Shown here: positions 1-32,807 of the stretch, in pieces
Numbering within the stretch: the first letter of the stretch is position 1
How the letters are laid out: each line of letters opens with the position of its first letter
Virus record (IMG/VR): IMGVR_UViG_3300003322_001275
Span: 1 to 38,876 of that record
Direction: 5' to 3' (one strand)
DNA length: 38,876 nucleotides
From: a virus
Made by a program: the position numbers and the translations under genes
The notes under the pieces: model-generated
Told to the model about the DNA's origin: nothing
The model's database searches: none
The model's input: the letters and a program-made list of their open reading frames with translations, nothing else

Positions 1-123
1 CTGTACGTGGGCTGGTTTGCAGTACAAACTGGTACGCGGATAGTCGGTCGGGCGAGGGGGGGGGTACCCGCGGCGGTTGGGTACCCGCTGCATCCGATCG
101 GGGAGCCTCGGATCTGTCACTCT
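1..123. other. Non-coding left edge with GTAC-centred repeats
   Basis: No convincing gene lies here. The stretch sits downstream of the leftward operon that ends at 124. It holds a GTACGCGG box at 32-39, identical to boxes in the divergent region near 1890-1930, and a related GTACGTGG at 3-10. A palindromic GGGTACCCGC is present twice, around 64-92. No hairpin with a T tract that would make a normal terminator was seen. It could be the edge of a regulatory or replication region cut by the window. Confidence 0.35.
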
Positions 124-510
124 TCAGTAGCTATTCGTGTGGCAGTCTCTACAGGCAAGTCCTTCGCCGCGATCGAGCCCAGCAGCTCCAAGGCTCATGA
201 GACACCCGGAGCAGACCAGGCGCTTGCAGGTGTAGCAGCGGCGGCGGCGATGGGTGGAGGGTTTGTGACAGCGTTCGCAGGGATGGCGTCGCTTCTCCCG
301 AAAAGCTGGCCAGATTTGCGGCGGAGGTAGAGGTCCACCAGATAGCGCGGCCCAGCAAGTCTTCTCGGCTTCGTCCAGGGCGGAAGTGACGAGCGCGGCC
401 CGGTCTGGAGATCGGTCGTTCATATAGGACCCGCGGGCCACGCCGACGAGGTATTGGAGCCGGCGAAGGGCTTCGGTGGGACGGTGGAGCTTGGCGGCGG
501 GATCGCGCAT
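124..510 (-). CDS. Small zinc-ribbon-like protein
   Basis: A 128-residue protein starting at MRDPAAKLHRPTEAL. I chose the ATG at 510 because it follows the upstream gene's stop (515-517) by four bases; a longer reading from 573 would overlap that gene. The C-terminal half carries a run of paired cysteines: CERCHKP, CYTCKR, CSGC and CRDC, with an arginine-rich linker, which is the pattern of a treble-clef or RING/FYVE-like double zinc site. The N-terminal half is helical and charged. It is the last gene of the leftward operon. Function is unknown; nucleic-acid or protein binding is inferred only from the zinc-site pattern. Confidence 0.6.
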   Translation of the reverse strand: MRDPAAKLHRPTEALRRLQYLVGVARGSYMNDRSPDRAALVTSALDEAEKTCWAALSGGPLPPPQIWPAFREKRRHPCERCHKPSTHRRRRCYTCKRLVCSGCLMSLGAAGLDRGEGLACRDCHTNSY

Positions 511-514
511 GTGC

Positions 515-739
515 TCACTCGCCTCGGTGGTCTCCCGGTCCACAGATGCGACGGATGGCGGCACGCACATCACTCATTGGGATTGCTGGCTCGTCAGGAT
601 CGTTACGCCATATCTTGCCAAGGCGCTTCACCTCGGCGAGCAGTTCCTCGCGGATGCGCTTCCGCTCGGTCTCGGCTCCAAGTCGCCTGCTTTCTCGGTC
701 GATTGCCAGAATGCCGGCGAGTTCTTCGGCTGCGTTCAT
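515..739 (-). CDS. Small hypothetical protein
   Basis: A 74-residue protein, rich in Arg and Glu and predicted mostly helical (MNAAEELAGILAIDRES at the start). Its ATG overlaps the stop of the upstream gene as ATGA at 736-739, and its stop lies four bases before the next start, so it is translationally coupled on both sides. I recognise no family. The tight coupling and codon use like its neighbours make it a credible gene. Confidence 0.55.
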   Translation of the reverse strand: MNAAEELAGILAIDRESRRLGAETERKRIREELLAEVKRLGKIWRNDPDEPAIPMSDVRAAIRRICGPGDHRGE

Positions 740-1023
740 AGGCTCGGCTCTCCAAGAAAAATCGGTCGATGGCGGTCGTTCTGGTCTTCTTCCTGGGTCG
801 TGTCCGTGATCATCACTACTTTGACGGAAGGGGGGTCGAACGGCCGGAGAGCATCGTGCTTCTCGGTGATGATGAGCGCGATGGCTTCGGGCGGCAGGTA
901 TTTGGTTCGAGAAGCAACACCGCTCGGATCGTTGTGTTCAGTGCGTTCGGGCAGGCCGAGACGGTCGAGGAGGTGATTCTGCTCGTCGGTTAGACCTGTA
1001 CGACGGATAAGCCAGGTAGTCAT
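736..1023 (-). CDS. Small hypothetical protein
   Basis: A 95-residue protein read from MTTWLIRRTGLTDEQ. The longer reading from 1107 was rejected because it would overlap most of the upstream gene, while the ATG at 1023 follows that gene's stop (1028) closely. It contains a hydrophobic stretch (AIALIITEK) and an acidic C-terminal part (ITDTTQEEDQ). No known family is recognised. It belongs to the leftward operon of 124-1840. Confidence 0.5.
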   Translation of the reverse strand: MTTWLIRRTGLTDEQNHLLDRLGLPERTEHNDPSGVASRTKYLPPEAIALIITEKHDALRPFDPPSVKVVMITDTTQEEDQNDRHRPIFLGEPSL

Positions 1024-1027
1024 TTGG

Positions 1028-1330
1028 TCACTCGCCTCCGATTTCTCGCCAGCCGACCCAATCACCGGAGCGGACAAAGACACGCGGAGCAGGATGCTCA
1101 CGCACATCTATCTCCTTCCTGCCTGCCGGGGTCGGCGCCGTTCCCCCTCCGCAACGACAAAGGAGTGCTCCGCGATACCAGTAGCCACCATGGCCTAGCT
1201 TCATTGCCGCATCGAAGTTGTCGTCGTCGAAGATGTCATGGAGGACGACGGCGAGAGAGCTGCCGCAGAAGGTGCATAGTAGCTCTTCGCCTTCGAGGAA
1301 TAATAATTGCGATGCGGGATCGGCGGTCAT
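1028..1330 (-). CDS. Small protein with zinc-binding cysteines
   Basis: A 100-residue protein. Two cysteine pairs are visible, CTFC near residue 20 and CRCGGG near residue 58, the spacing expected of a zinc ribbon. An acidic stretch (DIFDDDNFDA) lies between them. An AAAGAGGTGAG ribosome-binding site on the minus strand precedes the ATG at 1330, which supports this start. It lies between the GIY-YIG gene and a small unknown gene in one leftward transcription unit. It may bind DNA or a protein partner; nothing more specific can be said. Confidence 0.55.
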   Translation of the reverse strand: MTADPASQLLFLEGEELLCTFCGSSLAVVLHDIFDDDNFDAAMKLGHGGYWYRGALLCRCGGGTAPTPAGRKEIDVREHPAPRVFVRSGDWVGWREIGGE

Positions 1331-1336
1331 CTCTGC

Positions 1337-1840
1337 TCACCTCTTTCTTGGGTTGTGTACCGGATTGAACTCCTCAATCAATTCGTCCATCTTCTTCCTG
1401 GCCTTTTCCTCATCCGCGCAATGTACCAGCTCGATCGACGATATATTCGTCCACCACGCCATTCTCGCGGTTATATGCTGCCCGGGTCGGATGGAGACAC
1501 CGGCCGTGGCCCCGATATAGAGCACTCCGCCGTCCCTATCCCGCATGATGTACACCGTGTTCAGCTTCTTTACCGGAACAGCTCTGTATTTCTGTCCCGC
1601 ACGCCGGACCCTGTCTCTGTGTATGAGATATTCGGGTCTCGGTTCTCCTTCATGGCGCCGCCGATACATCGTGCACGCGGCACATTCCCGGCGACCATGA
1701 CGGCGAGGTCCACGACAATTCGAACAAGTAGGTTGGCGGATAGGTAGATCGGGATCGGGCCGTGAAGACGGTCTAGGGGTGCGGAAACCAGAAGTATGGG
1801 ACGTGTCTTTTGGGTCGTCTGTGTCTCTCATGGTGGCCAT
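1337..1840 (-). CDS. GIY-YIG nuclease with N-terminal zinc finger
   Basis: A 167-residue protein. Residues 39-56 form a CxxC...CxxC site (C39, C42, C53, C56) surrounded by Arg residues. Residues 94-162 form a GIY-YIG domain: VYIM at 96-99 and LYIG at 107-110 stand for the two signature strands, with R118 and H122 in the expected catalytic region, E156 as candidate metal ligand and N159 after it. GIY-YIG proteins cut or nick DNA and include homing and repair nucleases. It is the first gene of the leftward operon. The start could be Met1 or Met4; neither has a clear ribosome-binding site. The role here, homing versus host DNA or packaging-related cleavage, is open. Confidence 0.8.
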   Translation of the reverse strand: MATMRDTDDPKDTSHTSGFRTPRPSSRPDPDLPIRQPTCSNCRGPRRHGRRECAACTMYRRRHEGEPRPEYLIHRDRVRRAGQKYRAVPVKKLNTVYIMRDRDGGVLYIGATAGVSIRPGQHITARMAWWTNISSIELVHCADEEKARKKMDELIEEFNPVHNPRKR

Positions 1841-1882
1841 CGTACCACAAAACGCGTACAGTTTGCTCGGTAACTTTGGCTT

Positions 1883-2080
1883 ACCTTCTGTACGCGGTTT
1901 TGCTGTTTTGAGTCACCTTCCGTACGCGGTTGGCTGACCTTTTGAACACGGTTTTAACGAAATGTACGCGTGGTAACACGGTAACACGGGTATGTGTGAT
2001 CGCCTGGTTTACGCTGTAGTACGCCTGGGTTACGTCTTTCACGGCGTGTACATTTAGCCTTAACTTCAGGTAACACGGAA
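1883..2080. repeat. Iteron-like repeat array (GTACGCGG / GGTAACACGG boxes)
   Basis: Three direct copies of a 17-base unit ACCTTCTGTACGCGGTT occur at 1883-1899, 1915-1931 and 1937-1953, the third degenerate (ACCTTTTGAACACGGTT). They are followed by TGTACGCG at 1963-1970, a tandem GGTAACACGGTAACACGGG at 1972-1990, AGTACGCC near 2019, and GGTAACACGG at 2069-2078. The array fits an operator for several bound dimers, or a replication-origin iteron region. The ParB-like protein at 4107 or a zinc-finger protein nearby could be the binder (inference). Confidence 0.55.
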
Positions 2081-2181
2081 ACACAACCCTGCACTAGTAA
2101 TACTAAGAGGGGGTGTGGGGGAGGGAAGGGGGTCGGAGCCGGGCGCGGGTGGCGGTAATAAAGCGAGGAAAAAAATGGGGG

Positions 2182-2210
2182 TTGACAAAGGAGTCGGGAA
2201 GGAGGATGAT
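2182..2210 (+). promoter_or_regulatory. Possible sigma-70-like promoter of the early genes
   Basis: A perfect TTGACA at 2182-2187 is followed after 17 bases by GATGAT (2205-2210), a 4-of-6 match to a -10 box. It would start transcription about 85 bases before the ATG at 2301. Support is sequence match only, and the weak -10 box makes this tentative. Confidence 0.3.
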
Positions 2211-2300
2211 CGGATTATTGAAGGGGACGGATATGGCGTGGATATTCTCCGATGGGGCGGCGAACAAACGAATGAACCGATAAACTGGAAGGTGATCACC

Positions 2301-2477
2301 ATGTCCAAGATAATCGACGAGAAAAAGCAGGTGGCGGACAGATTCACCGATGGCTTCACTGCGGAAGAGCAAGAAGAGATCGATAACGAGATCTGCCGCA
2401 TTTGTGAACTTCCCTATGTAGAACATGACGGTACGGAACAACATCAGTTTGTTGCTTGTCGTCGGAGGCGGTCATGA
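2301..2477 (+). CDS. Small zinc-finger-like early protein
   Basis: A 58-residue protein beginning MSKIIDEKKQVADRF. GGAAGGTG about six bases before the ATG at 2301 decides the start; an upstream in-frame ATG at 2175 is the alternative. The C-terminal half has CRIC, a histidine in VEHD, another in EQHQ and a final cysteine in FVAC, a pattern that could bind one zinc ion. The tail is Arg-rich. It is the first gene of the rightward run and overlaps the next gene by ATGA. Function unknown; small phage proteins of this type are often regulators. Confidence 0.55.
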   Translation: MSKIIDEKKQVADRFTDGFTAEEQEEIDNEICRICELPYVEHDGTEQHQFVACRRRRS

Positions 2478-2644
2478 ACGTGGAACAACTCACACCAAAA
2501 CAGCGCCGCCGTCTGGAAGGCACCTTGGACGATCTCCTTTGGCTGTACCGGGAGGGAGATCTCGACCCGGCCGAGCGACATGCAGTCTCGACTGTCCGTC
2601 AGATAATCCACGAGATACTCGATGGGGACAGAGAGTTGACATGA
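2474..2644 (+). CDS. Small hypothetical protein
   Basis: A 56-residue, highly charged and probably helical protein (MNVEQLTPKQRRRLEG at its start). The ATG at 2474 overlaps the previous stop as ATGA, and its own stop overlaps the next start in the same way. The translational coupling is the main reason to believe the gene. I recognise no family. Confidence 0.5.
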   Translation: MNVEQLTPKQRRRLEGTLDDLLWLYREGDLDPAERHAVSTVRQIIHEILDGDRELT

Positions 2645-2901
2645 AAAGCCCGGTCACGAATCGTAAGCGTCCCGGCCGCCGCCTTCCCGGCCCTGGCCAG
2701 CTCCGCGGCCTCGAATGGGTCCACGATCGGGCCTATGCCGAGTTCGAGGCTGTAAAGGACGAAGAGAGTGAGGGCGGAAAGGATAGGACAGGGCGATCGA
2801 CGGGTGTGTTTGCCGGGACGTCCAGGCGTGAGGTTGAGGCGGCGCTCGATTGGTTGAGGAGGTTTATTGCGAGGACGGAGGAAGAAGGGAGAAGGGCATG
2901 A
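2641..2901 (+). CDS. Small hypothetical protein
   Basis: An 86-residue protein starting MKSPVTNRKRPGRRL. The basic, proline-rich N-terminus could contact nucleic acid. The C-terminal part (REVEAALDWLRRFIART) is an amphipathic helix. It is coupled by ATGA overlaps at both ends (2641-2644 and 2898-2901). I recognise no family. Confidence 0.5.
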   Translation: MKSPVTNRKRPGRRLPGPGQLRGLEWVHDRAYAEFEAVKDEESEGGKDRTGRSTGVFAGTSRREVEAALDWLRRFIARTEEEGRRA

Positions 2902-3239
2902 GCATGATTGTTGGCCGGACCTATATCTCGATCGACAGGAAAGATTTCACCGAGCACGTGCATTCATGGGACATGAAGGTTACTGGACAGTATCGTCGAG
3001 ACTATCCGGACAAGCCGCGGACACACGGTCGAGCCACAATGTCGTATTCAACTCATTTCTGGGGTTCACCGAAACTGCGGCAGATTGTTCGACCGCGGAC
3101 CAAGAAGCAATCCCGCAACGGCCTTCGTAAGGCATTCCTTCGTATTAAGCGACAGTTGATATCGCTCGGGATCTGGAACAGGTACGGCATTATGTGGATT
3201 CGGGCTCGCCGCGCTGCCATGAGATCCGCGGGAGGATAG
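2898..3239 (+). CDS. Hypothetical basic protein
   Basis: A 113-residue protein, start chosen at the ATG at 2898 that overlaps the upstream stop. It is very basic over its second half (PRTKKQSRNGLRKAF and RYGIMWIRARRAAMR), suggesting nucleic-acid contact. The N-terminal part has alternating hydrophobic residues compatible with beta strands. No family is recognised. A GGAGG at its 3' end serves as the ribosome-binding site of the next gene. Confidence 0.5.
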   Translation: MSMIVGRTYISIDRKDFTEHVHSWDMKVTGQYRRDYPDKPRTHGRATMSYSTHFWGSPKLRQIVRPRTKKQSRNGLRKAFLRIKRQLISLGIWNRYGIMWIRARRAAMRSAGG

Positions 3240-3244
3240 GCTCC

Positions 3245-3820
3245 GTGCGTGATACTATCTCGAAATTGGACAATCAGAAGCCGTCTAAACGTCGGACGAA
3301 GAAGGTGCTGCCGGCACATGCCGAGGTGGCGCGGACATCGATTGGTCTCGCGGCCAAGAAGGGCCGTCCCTCATTCATCGCGCCTTTCTTCTCTGTCCGC
3401 CAACCCCCACATGAACGCGCCCGCCGCCAAGCCTCCTATCCCCGGAACAATCGTGCGGGCTGGGTCAAGTACCACATTCTCATGTCTCCCGACCTCCGGC
3501 ACAGGATCGAGTCCCTGGCCCGGGTGATATTCCCGCATAGATCCAAGCGGCCCATGGCACCGTGGGTGATCGACAGATTGGAGGGGATGGTCGAGTGGGA
3601 AGAGGCGGACAATGAGGGACGAATTCCGTCCGGAGCGACAACCATTGGCGGGATGCTGCGGCTGAATGCGGTGGAGATGTTGAGGAGGGTAGGGATGTAC
3701 GAGGAGGCTGTGGGGTTGGCAGGTAGGCTGCTGTCCGATCCCGATCTGGTCGGCGATATCGGGGAGAGAATCGAGTTGCTACGGGATGAGCTGTACAACC
3801 AATTGATCGGGACGCCATAA
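3245..3820 (+). CDS. Hypothetical protein
   Basis: A 191-residue protein with a GTG start at 3245, nine bases after the GGAGG at 3231-3235. The first 70 residues are basic and proline-rich (NQKPSKRRTKKVLPAH), looking like a flexible DNA- or RNA-binding tail. The rest is helical with two likely repeats of an alpha-hairpin type (LRRVGMYEEAVGLAGRLL). No family is recognised; the helical part recalls small scaffold or adaptor proteins only in a general way. The gene has neighbours on the same strand and similar codon use. Confidence 0.5.
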   Translation: MRDTISKLDNQKPSKRRTKKVLPAHAEVARTSIGLAAKKGRPSFIAPFFSVRQPPHERARRQASYPRNNRAGWVKYHILMSPDLRHRIESLARVIFPHRSKRPMAPWVIDRLEGMVEWEEADNEGRIPSGATTIGGMLRLNAVEMLRRVGMYEEAVGLAGRLLSDPDLVGDIGERIELLRDELYNQLIGTP

Positions 3821-3837
3821 AGGAGGAAATCGATCGT

Positions 3838-4084
3838 ATGCGGACAATAAAGGGACCCGGAATCCTACTGTTCACCAGTAGAAGTAGCAGAAAGCCTGCG
3901 TGATTTGGCCGATCGAATCTCCCGTAGGCCGGAGAATAGTCGGGTCAAGTTCGACCTCCGGCTGTATTTCGCTTCGGTAGAAGATATCGAGGCTGCTCTG
4001 TTGAAGCAAGACACGTCGAAGCAAGACACGTCGAAGCAAGACACGTCGAAGCAAGACACGAGACAGAACAGAAAAACCCAGTAA
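3838..4084 (+). pseudogene. Short gene interrupted by a frame change, with tandem KQDTS repeats
   Basis: AAAGGAGG precedes an ATG at 3838, but that frame stops after 21 codons at 3901-3903. A second frame, open from about 3851 to the TAA at 4082-4084, has a protein-like sequence (EVAESLRDLADRI, then VKFDLRLYFASVEDIEAAL) with no start codon of its own. Joining the frames near 3870-3878 would give a protein of about 80 residues ending in a KQDTS repeat. A one-base indel (real or sequencing error) or a programmed +1 shift are possible. I favour a broken gene. Confidence 0.45.
4003..4060 (+). repeat. Tandem 15-base repeat
   Basis: The unit GAAGCAAGACACGTC is repeated at 4003-4017, 4018-4032 and 4033-4047, with a fourth partial copy at 4048-4060. 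The length is a multiple of three and codes for KQDTS repeats in the downstream frame of the interrupted gene at 3838-4084, so copy-number changes would not alter that frame. Confidence 0.9.
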
Positions 4085-4106
4085 AGAAGAAGAGGAGAAA
4101 CCTTCC

Positions 4107-5733: not shown

Positions 5734-5995
5734 GGACATCAAAGGCGGGCCGCCCTGGGAACTAACGGGCGACTGTGGGGAACGTCTCTTGTGCATCGAC
5801 ATCTTCGGCGTGGTGGTGAAGCCGGAACCGGCCGGGCGCGGATGGCAGGTACACGTCGAAGGAAGCCCTGGCCACTGGTCGCGCGGCGATACACAAGACG
5901 AAGCGGTCGGCAGCTTGATCCGGCGCTTGGCCGTTGAGCACGAAGGGGCGAATTTTCGGCGAATCCGGCAAGCAGTTTGCGGGGGTGATAGATGA
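5720..5995 (+). CDS. Small hypothetical protein
   Basis: A 91-residue protein, most likely from the TTG at 5720, which has AAAGGGGGG upstream; an ATG in frame at 5693 is the alternative. It shows a beta-rich pattern (LLCIDIFGVVVKPEP and GWQVHVEGSPGHW) followed by a helix (AVGSLIRRLAVEH), resembling small alpha/beta phage proteins without allowing a family call. Its stop overlaps the next start (ATGA at 5992). Confidence 0.45.
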   Translation: MSNFKDIKGGPPWELTGDCGERLLCIDIFGVVVKPEPAGRGWQVHVEGSPGHWSRGDTQDEAVGSLIRRLAVEHEGANFRRIRQAVCGGDR

Positions 5996-6294
5996 AACCG
6001 CCGATCACAGAGCCGGCAGTGGTACTCGCTCGATTGCGCAACTGGAAAGCCAGCCCGACGCACAGCCCGTATCCAGGGATGCTGCACAGCGTGGAGGATG
6101 ATTCACGTGTCGACTGGCGGGACGCGGTCTTGAAGATTCTCTGGCGTTTGCCGGAAGGATCGAGGGTGTCGATCGACGTCACCTATGAGTTGCCGGAGAA
6201 CGGTGACGTCGATCCCGAGGACGTCTGGGAGCTGTTGGCTCCGAATCATTACGGGCATCGAAGAACGAGGAAAGAAAAGGAGGACGGAAAATGA
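5992..6294 (+). CDS. Small hypothetical protein
   Basis: A 100-residue protein with an ATGA-coupled start. It has a mixed helix and strand pattern (VDWRDAVLKILWRLP, then SRVSIDVTYELPENG), and a very basic C-terminus (HRRTRKEKEDGK) whose last bases (GGAGG) form the ribosome-binding site of the RiPP-like gene. No family recognised. It is adjacent to and coupled with the RiPP-like gene, so the two are probably co-expressed. Confidence 0.5.
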   Translation: MKPPITEPAVVLARLRNWKASPTHSPYPGMLHSVEDDSRVDWRDAVLKILWRLPEGSRVSIDVTYELPENGDVDPEDVWELLAPNHYGHRRTRKEKEDGK

Positions 6295-6521
6295 AACTCA
6301 CTCTCCACCGCGAGACGATCAGGAATCTTACCGGGACCGCGATCCCCACCGCCGACCAGCTCAAGAACGTGAGAGGCGAAGGTATCGCGAGTCAGGGTCA
6401 GGCGTGTACCGGGAGCGGGGTGTCTCTTGCCGTCAACATGTGCGGGATTGGGAGCGTGGGGTTGAACGGGGGCGCGACAACCCTCACCGACCAGAGCGTG
6501 TGTATCGACCCGAACGGGTGA
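6291..6521 (+). CDS. RiPP precursor-like peptide (lanthipeptide-type leader)
   Basis: A 76-residue protein. Residues 3-14 read LTLHRETIRNLT, which matches the L-x-L-x-(K/R)-E-T-(L/I)-R-x-L-T leader of class I lanthipeptide-like precursors known from several Gram-negative phyla. LKNVRGEG (24-31) sits where those leaders have LxxVxGG, the cleavage site. The remaining 45 residues are rich in Gly, Ser, Thr and Ala with three cysteines (C39, C51, C71), a plausible core. GGAGG precedes the ATG, which overlaps the upstream stop. No LanB, LanC, radical SAM, protease or transporter gene is in the window, so any modification would need host enzymes. Alternative: a small glycine-rich structural protein that resembles a leader by chance. 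Confidence 0.6.
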   Translation: MKLTLHRETIRNLTGTAIPTADQLKNVRGEGIASQGQACTGSGVSLAVNMCGIGSVGLNGGATTLTDQSVCIDPNG

Positions 6522-6538: not shown

Positions 6539-7063
6539 GTGGGCCAACGCAAACAACCAACCGCGCTCAAGATGATCAAGGGTGAGGCTCCGTCCGGGAA
6601 ATGGATCGGGGCCGGGCGCAAACCGCCTCCCGTCGACGAGCCCAAGCCGCCTCAATGCTCGATCGACGATCCGATGCCGGAGCCCTCGCCAGCCCTATCC
6701 GAAAAGGGGAGGATGTATTGGTTCGGATGGATAGGGGAAAGGGTGCGGGCTTTGAGAGTGTTGACGGTCTCGGACCTGGCCGCGTTGGAGATCCTGTGCG
6801 AGACGTACGCGGACTATATCGAGGCCAGGGAATTGGTGAGGAATGAGGGGGCCTACACCAAAGACCTGATGCGGATCACGGCGCCGGCAAAAAGGTTGGA
6901 CAAGTTGGCGAAGGACCTCCAGACCCAGATGCGGGACTTTGGATTGAATCCGAGGGCGAGAGCGGAGGTGAAAACAGGAAAGAACAGTATGTCAGGCGGA
7001 TCGACCGGCAAGGAACAAACGAATAACCAGGGGCAACGGAAATTTTTCGGGTCGAGGGGGTAA
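6539..7063 (+). CDS. terS: Phage terminase small subunit, P27 family
   Basis: A 174-residue protein. The N-terminal GQRKQPTALKMIKGEAPSG matches the (G)RPPKPTALKxLxGNPGK pattern of P27-type small terminases, which recognise the packaging site on DNA and feed it to the large subunit. A helical core (SDLAALEILCETYADY) and a polar C-terminal tail follow, as in the family. The GTG at 6539 is chosen because GAGGGGGG at 6522-6529 lies nine bases upstream; GTG at 6518, overlapping the preceding stop, is the alternative. The large subunit is encoded downstream after three intervening genes. Confidence 0.85.
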   Translation: MGQRKQPTALKMIKGEAPSGKWIGAGRKPPPVDEPKPPQCSIDDPMPEPSPALSEKGRMYWFGWIGERVRALRVLTVSDLAALEILCETYADYIEARELVRNEGAYTKDLMRITAPAKRLDKLAKDLQTQMRDFGLNPRARAEVKTGKNSMSGGSTGKEQTNNQGQRKFFGSRG

Positions 7064-7066
7064 ACA

Positions 7067-7540
7067 GTGGAAACTCTGGAAGCAACTCGAACCATGAAAG
7101 TACTCGATCACGGATATGTGTCGTTGATCGACAACTGGGGTGACGACTCCAAGATCATCGAAGCGGCTCGCATGTCGACAGGAAAGGGTTTCACCGGGTG
7201 GGGAGAACTGCGATGTCGCTGCAACGCAATTAGTCTTACCGCCCGATGGTCGGGCAATGGTGACGGGAGTCGGCTCTTTCGCGATGCTGGCGATTCACGA
7301 TGTCCAATAGAACGCGGAGGCGCCCACGTCGCTATCGCGGAATCGTCGGTCGGTGACGAAAAGCTTCTGCGCTATCTGTGGATAAACAAGCACCACACCC
7401 CTTTCGAGATGGCGGGCATGACGATAGAGGTGCAAGCCCCGATACCTCGCACCCATCCGGTGTCGAGTGCATCACGATCACGGAGCACTTCAACTTCAAT
7501 CTCGGCAATGCGATCAAGTATATATGGCGCGCGGGGTTGA
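7067..7540 (+). pseudogene. thyX: Truncated ThyX-type thymidylate synthase
   Basis: From the GTG at 7067 (GAGGGGG upstream) the reading frame gives VLDHGYVSLIDNWGDDS and AARMSTGKG, both ThyX motifs, then a cysteine-containing insert (about residues 44-94), then EKLLRYLWINKHHTPFEM and the strand before the active site. ThyX makes dTMP with FAD and methylene-tetrahydrofolate. Similarity stops near 7444: the diagnostic RHRxxSxNExSxRY region and everything after it are missing, and the last 32 residues are out-of-frame reading of the next gene. The product cannot be an active enzyme by known ThyX criteria. The insert may be a subfamily feature or another sign of decay. Confidence 0.75.
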
Positions 7541-7659
7541 AGGACGAGACAAGCGAGCTAGACGATCTCAGGAAGGCAGCTTGGTACATCGCACGAGAGA
7601 TCGCACGACGTGAACGCGGAACACGAAACGGAATGCCAGATCCAGAGAAAGAAGATTAA
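7378..7659 (+). CDS. DUF3310-like protein, N-terminus lost or fused
   Basis: From about 7450 this frame reads HPSGVECITITEHFN, then GNAIKYIWRAGLKDE and DLRKAAWYIAREI, the core of the DUF3310 family found in many phages near nucleotide-metabolism genes. The nominal start (GTG at 7378) only yields a shadow of ThyX for the first 20-odd residues, and there is no ribosome-binding site near the domain. The usual short leader before HPSG is missing. The junction with the ThyX remnant at 7437-7450 looks like a deletion endpoint. A -1 shift from the ThyX frame would create a fusion, but no convincing slippery site is there. Confidence 0.6.
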   Translation: MDKQAPHPFRDGGHDDRGASPDTSHPSGVECITITEHFNFNLGNAIKYIWRAGLKDETSELDDLRKAAWYIAREIARRERGTRNGMPDPEKED

Positions 7660-7661
7660 TC

Positions 7662-7982
7662 GTGGGGATTGTCTACTTGATCCACTTCGAAACTCCATTC
7701 CAGGGGATGGCCCAACACTACCTCGGGTACACGAAAGATCTCAATGCCCGGCTGCGCGACCATTCTTCTGGAAGGGGTTCGTGTCTGATGGCGGCGGTGT
7801 CACAGGCGAATATTCCATGGCGAGTTGTCCGTACTTGGAGAGGCGATCGGAAACTTGAATCAGAGTTGAAAAAAAGAAGAGACCAGGTAGGAATGTGTCC
7901 GGAGTGTAGAGAGAGGAGAAAAAAACAGAAAAGGGATTACAAGGCAGCGGTACGGAAACTAAAGAAGGACGGGATCGTCTGA
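7662..7982 (+). CDS. GIY-YIG domain nuclease
   Basis: A 106-residue protein from a GTG at 7662. VYLIHF (4-9) and HYLGYT (19-24) are the two signature strands, R30 and H34 follow as candidate catalytic residues, and the GRGSCLM turn and LESELKKRRD helix complete a compact single-domain GIY-YIG nuclease. A CPEC pair (79-82) and a lysine-rich tail come after the domain. Its stop overlaps the start of the large terminase (TGATG). HNH nucleases often sit beside terminase genes and help cos cleavage; a GIY-YIG protein at this position may play a similar part (inference). Confidence 0.8.
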   Translation: MGIVYLIHFETPFQGMAQHYLGYTKDLNARLRDHSSGRGSCLMAAVSQANIPWRVVRTWRGDRKLESELKKRRDQVGMCPECRERRKKQKRDYKAAVRKLKKDGIV

Positions 7983-10120
7983 TGCCACCGTTCAAGTGGA
8001 CAAAGAGACCGGGGCAGCGAAGGACCGGCGTTGGAAAGGTTGAAGCGGTGCCGGCGCAAACCCCGGCGGGGACCACGCCCCCTCCGCCACCGACAGTACC
8101 GACACTGATCAATCCCCCAATCAATCCGCCGATCAAGAAAGTATCCAAGCTCGCGCTCCGCAAACCCAAACCGAGCCCAACGCTGCCATCGATCAAACCC
8201 GTCAAACAATCGACCCCGGTCTCGTCTCCCCCTGTCCTGGCCCCTATCGACCTGGGCGACCCCGTTACCGCCTACGCAAACGACGTCGTCTCTGGGAAGG
8301 TGTTTGCTTCCCGTCTCGTGATCGCCGCCTGCAAACGTCATCTGTCCGACCTCAAACGCACTGATATCTATTGGGATCTGGACGCCGCCCTACACCGGAT
8401 CTATTTCAATTCGGATGAACTCTTCCTCCCGTACAAGGAAGAGCCATTCCTCCGCCCCTTCGTCCTCCTTCCTTGGCAAATGTTCGTCGAGGGGTCGCTA
8501 TTTGGCTGGAAAATGGTCGATCCCGACACCGGCAAGATCGGATATCGCCGGTTCCAATACGCATACATCGAAGGTGCCAAGGGCTGCGGAAAATCCCCTG
8601 AGGCCGCCTCGACCATGATCTATCTCGGGATCTGCGACGGGGAACCTCAGGCCGAATGCTATTTCGCCGCCGCCGACAAAGATCAGGCCATGGTCGCTTT
8701 CCGATCCGCGGTCGATCTATGCCGGAACTCGCCAGAGCTGGAGCAGCGGATCTCGTTCTCCGGTCGGAAACCCGTATGGCAGATCACCTATATAAACGCG
8801 TGCAGCGAGGGGGAGGATCGGCTGCTAGGGTCGTTCTTGAAACCCATCTCCTCTGACAACACCCAATCCGGACCCCGACCCCATGGCGTCCTCTTCGACG
8901 AGCTGCACGAGGTCGCCAAGGAAGAAGTTGTAAACATGATGCGGAAGGCGATCGGTAAAAACCGAACCCAGCCGCTCTTGTACGAGATCACCAATTCGGG
9001 AGTGAGTCGGGAGTCGATCTGTTACCAGCATCGGATCCAGGCCGAGCGAATGTTGGACGGTACGATGCCGAACGATCGCCTATTCGCGTTCATCGCCGGG
9101 TTGGACGTGGCGACGGGGAGTGGGGACGATGCACTCCCTGGAGATATCCCGGACGGGGTCGATCCGCTCAAGTACCTACTAGATCACCGCGAACTCTGGG
9201 TCAAGGCGAACCCGGGAATCGACTACGGGGTGCCTGGATATCAATACGTCGAGCAACAGATCAAGGATGCGCTGTCCATACCGAGCCAGAAGAATCTCGT
9301 TCTCCGGCTCCACTTCTGCATCTGGACCGATGCGCATTCCGTCTGGATCGGGGACGACGCGTGGATGGCCTGTGGATACGAGTTGGGATCGAGAAAGATC
9401 GAGATAGGAGATCATGGCCTCCTGACCCAGATCGAAGCGGACATGTTGGGGAGGAGGTGTTACGGCGGCCTGGACTTGGCCAGATCCAATGACTGGTCGT
9501 CCATGGTCTTGCTCTTTCCTGATGATCAATCCAATAAAAATCCGGATTCCCAGACCTATACCGTGATCGAGTATTTCTGGATTGATGAAGCAACGTTCAA
9601 CGAGAGGGCGGCGAAGAATCCGATCCTGTACACATGGAGAGAGAACGGCGATGTCATCGTCACTCCAGGAGAGGTGTTCGACCCTACCCCGATCCGGGAT
9701 TTCATTCTGGACAAGCTATCCCGTCGCTACCTGATCCAGGCGATCGGATATGACCGGACCTTCGCCCACCAGATAATCACTACCCTGACCAACGACGGGT
9801 TCAACATGCTGGACTTTGCCCAGACACATTACCGCATGGGCGCACCAGTTGCCGAGATCGAGAGGAGAGTCCGGGCAAGGTTGTTGCGCCACGGAAAGAA
9901 CCCGATCATGAGATGGATGATGAGGAACGTACAACTATTGATGGATATAGGGGGGCTCGGGCTGATCGATAAAAAGAGAAGCAGTGAGAAGGTAGATGGC
10001 CCGGTTGCGATGGCGAACGCGATGGGAATCATGATGACGCTGAACAAGGGAGATGAAAGCGGAGGGAGTGATCATTATGCGGAGAGGGGAGTTATAGTTA
10101 TCGAGGATGCGTACTACTGA
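7982..10120 (+). CDS. terL: Phage terminase large subunit
   Basis: A 712-residue ATP-driven packaging motor and nuclease. After a proline-rich N-terminal extension of about 90 residues comes the ATPase: Walker A is GAKGCGKS (198-205), Walker B is VLFDELHE with D306 and E307. The C-terminal RNase H-like nuclease begins with YGGLDLARSNDW (494-505), D498 being the likely first metal ligand. The length and motif order fit the HK97-type (Terminase_1) group used with P27 small subunits. Translation is coupled to the preceding GIY-YIG gene. The long Pro- and Thr-rich extension is unusual for the family. Confidence 0.93.
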   Translation: MPPFKWTKRPGQRRTGVGKVEAVPAQTPAGTTPPPPPTVPTLINPPINPPIKKVSKLALRKPKPSPTLPSIKPVKQSTPVSSPPVLAPIDLGDPVTAYANDVVSGKVFASRLVIAACKRHLSDLKRTDIYWDLDAALHRIYFNSDELFLPYKEEPFLRPFVLLPWQMFVEGSLFGWKMVDPDTGKIGYRRFQYAYIEGAKGCGKSPEAASTMIYLGICDGEPQAECYFAAADKDQAMVAFRSAVDLCRNSPELEQRISFSGRKPVWQITYINACSEGEDRLLGSFLKPISSDNTQSGPRPHGVLFDELHEVAKEEVVNMMRKAIGKNRTQPLLYEITNSGVSRESICYQHRIQAERMLDGTMPNDRLFAFIAGLDVATGSGDDALPGDIPDGVDPLKYLLDHRELWVKANPGIDYGVPGYQYVEQQIKDALSIPSQKNLVLRLHFCIWTDAHSVWIGDDAWMACGYELGSRKIEIGDHGLLTQIEADMLGRRCYGGLDLARSNDWSSMVLLFPDDQSNKNPDSQTYTVIEYFWIDEATFNERAAKNPILYTWRENGDVIVTPGEVFDPTPIRDFILDKLSRRYLIQAIGYDRTFAHQIITTLTNDGFNMLDFAQTHYRMGAPVAEIERRVRARLLRHGKNPIMRWMMRNVQLLMDIGGLGLIDKKRSSEKVDGPVAMANAMGIMMTLNKGDESGGSDHYAERGVIVIEDAYY

Positions 10121-29181: not shown

Positions 29182-29622
29182 ATGCCAATAACCGGAACTT
29201 TCTATCCCCACGGCATGTGCTGGCAATGGGACTGGCGTCTCATCTCTCTACACGGCATATCTGACCTTCTCACGTTCGCCGCATATGCAATGATATCGAC
29301 CACTGCGTTCTACGTGTACCGGCGCGGAGGTCTATCGCGCCTAGCTTATCCCGAACTGTGGACGGTTGGAGCCGCGTTCGTCTTCCTGTGCGGTATGTCC
29401 CACCTCGGCAACTTCCTGGAGATCTTCATCGGGGGAAAGATTTATTGGCTCACCGGGATTAACAAAATCGCGATGAGTTTCTGCTCGCTGCGTTTTGCTG
29501 CCATTCTCTTTTCTCTCCGGCAGGAGTTCCTATCCGTCGCCGAGGTTCTGCGCCGTATCCGGATGCGGGAGCGTGAACGGGGAAACGAGGATGAAGACGG
29601 ACCTGAAACGGGAACGAAATAA
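29182..29622 (+). CDS. Ethylene-receptor-like three-helix membrane protein
   Basis: A 146-residue protein; AAAGGAG precedes the ATG. Three membrane helices span roughly 20-46, 57-82 and 89-112. The layout matches the ethylene-binding domain of ETR1-type receptors and cyanobacterial homologues: PHGMCWQWD before helix 1, D28 and Y35 with the D-x6-Y spacing of ETR1 D25/Y32, I38 matching I35, and FLCGMSHL in helix 2 with C70 and H74 in the i, i+4 position of the copper ligands C65 and H69. K95 is near the place of ETR1 K91. ETR1 P36 is replaced (S39). No kinase or GAF domain follows; the charged tail is only 30 residues. Position after the tape measure also allows a holin-like role. Confidence 0.65.
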   Translation: MPITGTFYPHGMCWQWDWRLISLHGISDLLTFAAYAMISTTAFYVYRRGGLSRLAYPELWTVGAAFVFLCGMSHLGNFLEIFIGGKIYWLTGINKIAMSFCSLRFAAILFSLRQEFLSVAEVLRRIRMRERERGNEDEDGPETGTK

Positions 29623-30727: not shown

Positions 30728-31162
30728 ATGAGACGGAATGCGGTAGCGAGAATTGGTATCCTGACTTTGGCGGCTTTCACGTTTACTTCTGGGTTGGCCC
30801 TGACACAAGTCGATACCATTGATGTCCACTTCGCCGATCCAACCCATAACGCAGGTGATGTATCGACCGAGGCAGAAACCACGGTGGCCGGTACCTGGAC
30901 TCGCGTTCAACTCCACCTTCCTGTATCTTGTTCACCTTCTCGCATCGAGTGGGATGGGAATTATTCGCGCTTGGCTTCGTCTTCATCTCCCGGGACGTTC
31001 TATGTCATGTTCTCGAATGACTTGAAACCGTTCTATACTGGAGAGGTGTTCGGGCATGTGGGGGTGGCACCGAGGGGACCGGGATGTAGCGAGTCGGGAT
31101 TCATCGATACGTGGATTTCAGTTAGACTTACGATTCAAGTTTCTCCGCCGCCGTCTCAATGA
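30728..31162 (+). CDS. Secreted hypothetical protein
   Basis: A 144-residue protein with a signal peptide: basic MRRNAVARIG, a hydrophobic core (ILTLAAFTFTSGLA) and probable cleavage around residues 24-25. The mature part is beta-rich with two cysteines (SCSPSRIEWDG and GPGCSESG) and pairs of FYVMFS/WISVRLTIQV strands, like a small jellyroll or Ig-type domain. Signal peptides are unusual for phage virion genes, so an exported product is likely. First gene of the secreted cassette. Function unknown. Confidence 0.6.
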   Translation: MRRNAVARIGILTLAAFTFTSGLALTQVDTIDVHFADPTHNAGDVSTEAETTVAGTWTRVQLHLPVSCSPSRIEWDGNYSRLASSSSPGTFYVMFSNDLKPFYTGEVFGHVGVAPRGPGCSESGFIDTWISVRLTIQVSPPPSQ

Positions 31163-31274
31163 TCGCGGCTTCTCCTTTCTCGAAACGTCCGCATCGTGCA
31201 GGCGTAAAGAACCAGTCGGGTGGACTTGCACACCTAGATCGGTTCACGTGGTTCGAGAGGCGGCGGCGGAGAAA
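31140..31274 (+). repeat. 18-bp inverted repeat with nested stems (candidate structured RNA)
   Basis: TTTCTCCGCCGCCGTCTC at 31140-31157 pairs with 31257-31274 over 18 bp (one T-G wobble). Inside, CTCGAAACGT at 31179-31188 pairs with ACGT...TTCGAG at 31246-31257 with a two-base bulge, and GTGCA 31196-31200 with TGCAC 31227-31231. The left arm covers the 3' end of the previous gene and the right arm ends 46 bases before the cysteine-rich secreted gene. Could be an RNA element in the leader or a small repetitive insertion. Confidence 0.6.
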
Positions 31275-31320
31275 TAGTGAGAAAACAAACGAGAAGGAAA
31301 AGAGAAAAGGAGAAAAAAAA

Positions 31321-31800
31321 ATGAGAAAGGTTGTTCTTGTTCTGGCTGTCGTGCCGATCCTCGTCGCAGCTCTCACATCGCCCGCGTTTGGCACGTTCTC
31401 TCACTTCTGCTGTGACTACGACAACTCGTGTCCCGGATACTGGTCCCCGAACCACGCAGTCGAAGACGAGGTCGGCGGCTGCACCAATACCGGTAACAAC
31501 ACGGTGGACGGTACCTGCACCATCGGCAACAAGGTGAGAAGCTGTGATGATGATTCGTGCTTCACTTGGGTTGGTCATGTCGACTGCTTCGGCGGGGCCT
31601 GCGCCGTGTCCGGCACCCTGCTCTGTAGCGGGAGCAGTCATATTCTTCAACACTTCCAGGCGACTTGCCTGTCGGGCAGCCACGGAAACCCGAAGGCAAC
31701 GGCTTTGTTGTCATCGGCAACATGCATCGACGACAACGGGTACGGAACGACCCACACTTGCGCGTGTAGTGCAACAGGCACTGCGGCGAACTGCAACTGA
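31321..31800 (+). CDS. Secreted cysteine-rich protein
   Basis: A 159-residue protein with AAAAGGAG before the ATG. A signal peptide (RKVVLVLAVVPILVAAL, cleavage near the SPAFG) precedes a mature part of about 135 residues with 15 cysteines, starting with HFCCDYDNSCPG, and many Gly, Asn and Thr. The odd cysteine count leaves one unpaired if all others form disulfides. This looks like a secreted, disulfide-rich surface or toxin-like protein; no family is recognised. Second gene of the secreted cassette. Confidence 0.65.
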   Translation: MRKVVLVLAVVPILVAALTSPAFGTFSHFCCDYDNSCPGYWSPNHAVEDEVGGCTNTGNNTVDGTCTIGNKVRSCDDDSCFTWVGHVDCFGGACAVSGTLLCSGSSHILQHFQATCLSGSHGNPKATALLSSATCIDDNGYGTTHTCACSATGTAANCN

Positions 31801-31885
31801 TCGCATCGTACCGGACCCTGTCCTAAAAGGAATGCAGCTAAACATTTCTCCTCGTTCCCGTGTCTCATCTCTTGTACGACGGCAT

Positions 31886-31907
31886 AGGCGGGCAATCGAG
31901 CCCGCCT
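31886..31907 (+). terminator. Perfect 8-bp hairpin, terminator-like
   Basis: AGGCGGGC (31886-31893) and GCCCGCCT (31900-31907) form a perfect 8-bp stem with loop AATCGA. The following TGTTCGTT is a weak T-rich stretch. It separates the cysteine-rich gene from the next secreted-protein gene. Confidence 0.6.
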
Positions 31908-31934
31908 TGTTCGTTGGATGGAAGGATGGCCTAA

Positions 31935-32807
31935 GTGTTGTCACGTAAGTTGGTGTTTCTGGCGTTGCTCGTAGTATCAACCTCGATGGTGGTGGGATCG
32001 GTCGACTCCCCTCTTCACGCGGACGACCTGGTTCTTCTCCCGCGGCCCTGCCGAATCCTCGATACCAGGTCGTCTTCCCGCTTGGGTCCGAACAGCAGCA
32101 TGAGCTTTCGCGTTCGCAATTCACCGCCGACTACGCAAGGCGGGGAGAGCGGATGCGAGATCCCGAAGTATGCGACCGGTGCCTTGCTGAGCCTCGACGC
32201 GATCAATCCATCCGGTTCTGGGTACGCGCGGACCTGGCAGTTCGCGACGACGATGCCATTTGCGGTGACGCTTCTGATGACCAATGCCGAGAACAACAAC
32301 GTCGTCAGCGCCACTGTCAAGCTGCCTTCCTACACCTCGCCCGCCGATGTCTCTCTCTTCACCACGACCGAGAGCGATTTCGTCGTCGATCTTACCGGTT
32401 ACACGACAGACTGCTCTGCTTACTCTGAGTACCTGGCCTTCGTTCCCACGTGCAGCTTCGCCTGCCTTCCCGTCGATGTGGCGGCAGCGCAGACGGGGGA
32501 CTCGATGCGCTTCGCCTCGAAGTGCTTCAGCAGCATCCAGAATCACGGGGATGCTATCGGATGCGGGTCCTTTCAAGGGCTGTGCATTCCGTCTACACCT
32601 CCGCCTGCTCCTGGCTCTTCCACGCCCACCGCAACATCCGCAAGCGCGGACTGTCGGCTGCTCGTCGTGCCCTGCTCGGCGGGGTGTTACACACCGACTC
32701 CGGGGACCTTCGCCTGGTCCTGCTTCAAGGTATTGAAAGATGCCGGCGAGGTCGTCCAGTGCACGGACGACAGCCATCGCGGCTTCTGCGGCCCTGTGAC
32801 AACCTGA
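31935..32807 (+). CDS. Secreted protein with PCRxLDTR domain and two cysteine modules
   Basis: A 290-residue protein from GTG 31935, with GGAAGGATGG upstream. A signal peptide (KLVFLALLVVSTSMVV; likely cut after PLHA) is followed by RPCRILDTR (37-45), CEIPKYA (74-80), and DFVVDLTGY (148-156): the features of a domain common in exported proteins of Acidobacteriota, Myxococcota and related groups (PCRxxDTR...CxIP...DVxGY). Then two cysteine modules follow, C173/C177/C197/C210/C217 and C247/C251/C263/C276/C285, about 75 residues apart, separated by a Pro/Ser/Thr linker. It may be displayed on or released from the infected cell. Confidence 0.7.
   Translation: MLSRKLVFLALLVVSTSMVVGSVDSPLHADDLVLLPRPCRILDTRSSSRLGPNSSMSFRVRNSPPTTQGGESGCEIPKYATGALLSLDAINPSGSGYARTWQFATTMPFAVTLLMTNAENNNVVSATVKLPSYTSPADVSLFTTTESDFVVDLTGYTTDCSAYSEYLAFVPTCSFACLPVDVAAAQTGDSMRFASKCFSSIQNHGDAIGCGSFQGLCIPSTPPPAPGSSTPTATSASADCRLLVVPCSAGCYTPTPGTFAWSCFKVLKDAGEVVQCTDDSHRGFCGPVTT

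Follow-up and report, generated by a model that had tools for sequence, protein, structure and literature searches.

We found that an uncultivated tailed phage carries, in its packaging operon, a gene for a small protein whose N-terminus is very probably homologous to the leaders of class I lanthipeptide precursors. The phage is represented by an IMG/VR virus record of 38,876 bases with a GC content of 57.6%, the whole of which was analysed and is referred to here as the window. It is of the HK97 type, and PHROG profiles recognised a ParB-like protein, a P27-type terminase small subunit (TerS), a terminase large subunit (TerL), a portal protein and a major head protein, alongside an S49-type protease recognised by Pfam. 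The explanation that we hold with slightly better than even confidence is that the gene encodes an orphan class I lanthipeptide precursor, which the phage took from a host bacterium and which the LanB and LanC enzymes of that host recognise in trans.

The precursor gene (P0001; positions 6291–6521, plus strand) encodes a 76-aa product, MKLTLHRETIRNLTGTAIPTADQLKNVRGEGIASQGQACTGSGVSLAVNMCGIGSVGLNGGATTLTDQSVCIDPNG. Its start codon lies within the stop codon of a small open frame for a hypothetical 100-aa protein (5992–6294, plus strand), forming an ATGA overlap, and is placed 3' of a strong Shine-Dalgarno region read from the sequence (AAAAGGAGGACGGAAA-ATG; 6275–6290, plus strand). Under a codon-usage model trained on the structural genes of the phage, the precursor frame scores +0.26 bits per codon and the other five frames 0.01 or less; this value is similar to that of terS (0.21) and above that of the upstream frame (0.02), which has a weak coding signal and a best PHROG E-value of only 0.076. 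The terS gene (6539–7063, plus strand; PHROG 83, E 1e-16; Pfam Terminase_4) begins at a GTG codon 17 nt past the precursor stop and has its own G-rich ribosome-binding site. Taken together, the ribosome-binding site, the ATGA overlap, the codon usage in one frame only and the proximity of terS make the precursor a well-supported gene. The first-pass annotation had described this 76-residue frame, its ATGA coupling to the gene before it and terS following without a gap; translation confirms the frame, the coupling is seen in the sequence and the next gene is indeed a P27-type terS, but the claim that no gap separates them was wrong. An upstream start for terS, under which the precursor frame would be an artefact, was rejected: across the precursor gene the terS frame has a codon score of -0.51 bits per codon, and the Pfam terminase match is confined to the part after 6539, although the open terS frame overlaps the precursor gene.

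The surroundings of the gene also bear on whether the contig could be an assembly chimera in which a bacterial precursor was joined to a phage terS. This we consider very unlikely, since the codon usage of the precursor is phage-like, the ATGA overlap and terS flank it closely on either side, a ParB-like phage gene lies to the left and the terminase to the right, and GC is fairly even over the contig; what speaks for a chimera is that only one contig is available and that the gene just upstream has a weak coding signal. Within the same part of the record, we observed a ThyX thymidylate synthase remnant (7067–7659, plus strand; Thy1, 24.7 bits, just under the cut-off) that is truncated, has an in-frame insertion of ~50 codons and runs into an overlapping DUF3310 gene. 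It is followed by a GIY-YIG-like endonuclease gene (7662–7982) and by the gene for TerL (7982–10120, plus strand; PHROG 9, E 2e-118). The left arm (1–4100) has a very low coding signal by phage codon usage, and its sole recognised gene is endonuclease-like (1337–1840, minus strand; PHROG 16880, E 6e-9).

The leader recognition motif KLTLHRETIRNLT (6294–6332, plus strand) corresponds to positions 10–22 of NF038153, the NCBIfam class I lanthipeptide leader model lant_leader_L1a. In a search with the whole library, this model matches residues 2–14 at 14.7 bits (E 0.026), which falls short of its curated cut-off of 22 bits. The leader ends in ADQLKNVRGEG (6351–6383, plus strand), the counterpart of the L..V.GG cleavage site; in a six-frame search its LKNVRGEG stretch falls in the correct order on model positions 23–31, with a score of 3.6 bits that is insignificant alone, and its alignment with bacterial members covers columns L24, G29 and C39. 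For an independent profile, 36 Acidobacteriota class I lanthipeptide leaders were collected by NF038153 alone with the phage protein excluded, which avoids circularity. This profile gives the phage protein 29.1 bits (E 6.2e-7 for a set of 20,000 sequences) and the stretch KLTLHRETIRNLT by itself 25.8 bits, while the top score among 20,000 shuffles of the phage protein was 10.1 bits, a value reached by none of the other ORFs of the window. A profile of 15 members from outside the precursor-rich genome described below gave 28.7 bits, and the full 45-member profile gave 30.1 bits, with true members ranging from 7.5 to 40 (median about 29) when left out one at a time; the phage protein scores as an ordinary family member.

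These results support the earlier assignment to the class I lanthipeptide leaders, both through the independent profile and through residue-level likeness to precursors of Acidobacteriota, deltaproteobacteria and Phycisphaerae, and the leader residues first named, MKLTLHRETIRNLT and LKNVRGEG, are correct. Similarity of residues 1–31 to a leader model thus exists, but L1a membership is seen only with the lineage-specific profile (29.1 bits) and not with NCBIfam's own model (14.7 bits against 22). The shortness of the motif, the score below the curated cut-off and the lack of homologues with the same core would fit a chance likeness, in which an unrelated small phage protein happens to start with KLTLHRETIRNLT. 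We judge this very unlikely, because the independent profile gives the leader match a P of about 3e-11 per sequence, which by our own estimate would still be low after examination of 10^8 to 10^9 viral ORFs, and because the motif stands at the extreme N-terminus and is followed by L..V.G.G and by a core with ten times the cysteine frequency of the phage (6.7% of the core versus 0.6% in the structural proteins).

The phage protein nevertheless departs from the bacterial family. Its linker from LT to G-x-G exceeds that of most members by six residues, its leader ends in VRGEG and not V.GG (GG is present in 36 of the 45 bacterial members and absent in the other nine), and KL is preceded by a single residue, against 5–8 in most members, the basic N-terminal extension being missing. 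The longer linker, the lost GG and the lost basic N-terminus would be explained by a domesticated remnant, meaning a captured precursor that no longer meets LanB and has taken on another phage role or persists as a neutral passenger; its seat in a phage operon and the only hypothetical standing of a candidate host with LanB point in the same direction. However, the 13-residue LanB-recognition motif is intact, where decay would be expected without selection, and we regard a remnant as fairly unlikely. The putative core (6384–6518, plus strand) comprises 45 aa with nine Ser/Thr and three Cys, and all three of the cysteines claimed at the outset lie within it. Each core Cys has a Ser or Thr 2–6 residues N-terminal to it, which is also true of 27% of shuffles, so the ring spacing indicates only compatibility with (methyl)lanthionine rings and carries no signal above chance. 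From the intact motif and the Cys-containing core, we infer that modification of the phage peptide by the host is somewhat probable.

To place the leader among bacterial precursors, a degenerate DNA pattern for KLxLx[KR]ETxRxLT was run over 84,980 genomes. It occurred in 11 places, eight of which are precursor-like (nearby start, short core), most with a GG-like site and Cys; four are from Acidobacteriota, two from deltaproteobacteria and two from Phycisphaerae, as exemplified by KLSLHRETIKRLTVEDLRAVRGG (L031), KLQLHRETLRNLGATQLRVANGG (L065) and KLMLNSETIRNLTAEDLRGVNGG (L015). A LanB dehydratase was present in 8/8 genomes with leader-pattern precursors versus 0/14 control genomes. The L1a leader is sparse, passing the cut-off in 6 of 396 Acidobacteriota genomes and in 1 of 189 genomes from the phylum to which one of the deltaproteobacteria belongs, while a single Thermoanaerobaculum-like genome (L013, G002) holds at least 19 L1a-type precursors on many contigs together with three LanB regions. 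Precursors of these bacteria are mostly far from LanB, and most of the families identified in 72 genes flanking them are housekeeping ones, with LanC-like seen once; among the 25 of 41 families listed for these flanking genes, none was a terminase, portal or capsid. Because the precursors are scattered and their flanks mostly housekeeping, the enzymes very probably act on distant precursors in these bacteria, and modification in trans is probably usual where L1a precursors occur. With enzymes that work at a distance, the phage gene would need only the leader to be served.

As the first-pass annotation had noted, no maturation enzyme is in view: the phage record contains neither LanB nor LanC, and its only LanB-sized ORFs are tail-type genes and TerL. 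The sublancin cluster supplies its own enzymes and exporter, whereas the gene studied here is a precursor alone, and no such set of modification enzyme and exporter was found in the record. Because the phage carries no modifying enzymes, the peptide probably depends on host enzymes or interferes with them. Interference could take the form of a decoy for counter-defence, whose leader would bind host LanB and block or divert host lanthipeptide production, some of it possibly anti-phage, with no need for modification of the core. An enzyme-free leader would suffice for a decoy, the loss of the N-terminal extension and the change at the cleavage site are in keeping with binding without processing, and the anti-phage intracellular lanthipeptides of Streptomyces (PMC12360287) make a counter-measure plausible, as a motive for a decoy and not as evidence of one. 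The retained Cys-containing core, superfluous in a bare decoy, argues against it, as do the lack of any sign that Acidobacteriota-type lanthipeptides act on phages and the occurrence of the gene in no other phage sequence searched, and we consider a decoy quite unlikely. The proposal that the gene is a leader mimic which captures host LanB, either as decoy counter-defence or so that a phage-specified peptide is made by host machinery for the benefit of the phage, is in our view doubtful.

For the orphan precursor served by host enzymes, which we prefer, the following course can be proposed. The phage would have captured the gene from a bacterium whose precursors carry the L1a leader (KLxLxxETLRxL...L..V.GG), and the precursor would be translated where the packaging genes are about to begin. 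The LanB dehydratase of the host would recognise the leader in trans, as is probably the case for scattered bacterial precursors, after which LanB and LanC would dehydrate Ser/Thr residues and link each of the three core cysteines into a thioether ring. The product may then be of use to the phage or lysogen, for instance as a weapon against competitors or through changes that it causes in the infected cell. Counting against a precursor are the single contig, the absence of relatives in the collections searched, the NCBIfam score below the cut-off, the departures in linker, GEG and N-terminus, and the ring spacing at chance.

Whole-protein searches returned no relative in IMG/VR and chance matches only in GenBank phages, and across 788 sampled genomes (396 Acidobacteriota and 392 of the Phycisphaerae phylum) there was no relative, only weak partial matches to mostly long or broken frames. 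Leader patterns were absent from IMG/VR save for a 107-aa frame that occurs nine times and is unrelated, the leader was not found in GenBank phages, and the strict pattern KLTL[HN]RETxRNLT had no occurrence over the genome contigs. The first-pass annotation had pointed to related phages as the place to look for the same protein; the searches turned up no second phage copy, and the precursor is known from a single contig, with the proviso that the collections searched may omit near neighbours of the window. TerS gave no match as a query, and the nearest TerL relatives are only about 33–37% identical, which marks the phage as isolated; the stretches examined in TerL-related phages contained no leader-like ORF. 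A host search in Acidobacteriota by TerL and DNA match yielded only distant TerL matches and a 73% match in the DUF3310 region, and no spacer-like arrays were seen at the loci examined.

The right part of the record contains further genes that we note in their own right. A 146-aa multi-pass protein (29182–29622, plus strand) matches ETR1_N, the ethylene-receptor N-terminal domain, at E 2e-14 and carries ISD and LCGMSHL motifs, which correspond to the Asp, Cys and His residues through which ETR1 binds ethylene/copper. It has no match in GenBank phages and is located after a tape-measure-sized gene, where a holin might be expected. Three adjacent genes (30728–32807, plus strand) have signal-peptide-like sequences near the N-terminus and no Pfam match where tested; two of them are Cys-rich (31159–31800 and 31935–32807), and the product of the latter contains a PCRILDTR motif of the kind seen in secreted proteins of soil bacteria.

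The roles of soil-bacterial lanthipeptide systems with many scattered precursors are obscure, and lanthipeptides have recently been linked to phage defence. With a precursor and no enzymes of its own, the phage offers a direct, testable handle on whether host LanB acts on a viral substrate and on who benefits. Precedents exist for the leader family, for scattered precursors and for bacteriocin clusters carried by phages; for a phage with a precursor alone in its packaging operon we found no description in the open-licence literature searched. The closest likeness is to the L1a precursors of NF038153 from Acidobacteriota, deltaproteobacteria and Phycisphaerae, with which the phage gene shares the N-terminal KLxLxxETxRxLT, the L..V.G.G site, a short Cys/Ser/Thr core and a location apart from LanB; it differs from them in its packaging operon, sub-cut-off score, longer linker, GEG ending, lack of a basic N-terminal extension and unrelated core. 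In prochlorosin-type systems, one promiscuous enzyme acts on many precursors that are partly unlinked to it (PMC10783134), but these systems are bacterial and of class II (ProcM) with Nif11-type leaders, whereas the gene here is of class I type and phage-borne. Bacteriocin clusters borne by prophages, such as that of sublancin on SPbeta (PMC8270828), are likewise cases of a phage carrying a gene for a modified antimicrobial peptide. The intracellular anti-phage lanthipeptides of Streptomyces, which have been reviewed (PMC12360287), likewise tie lanthipeptides to phage infection, but as a defence encoded by the host and not by the phage.
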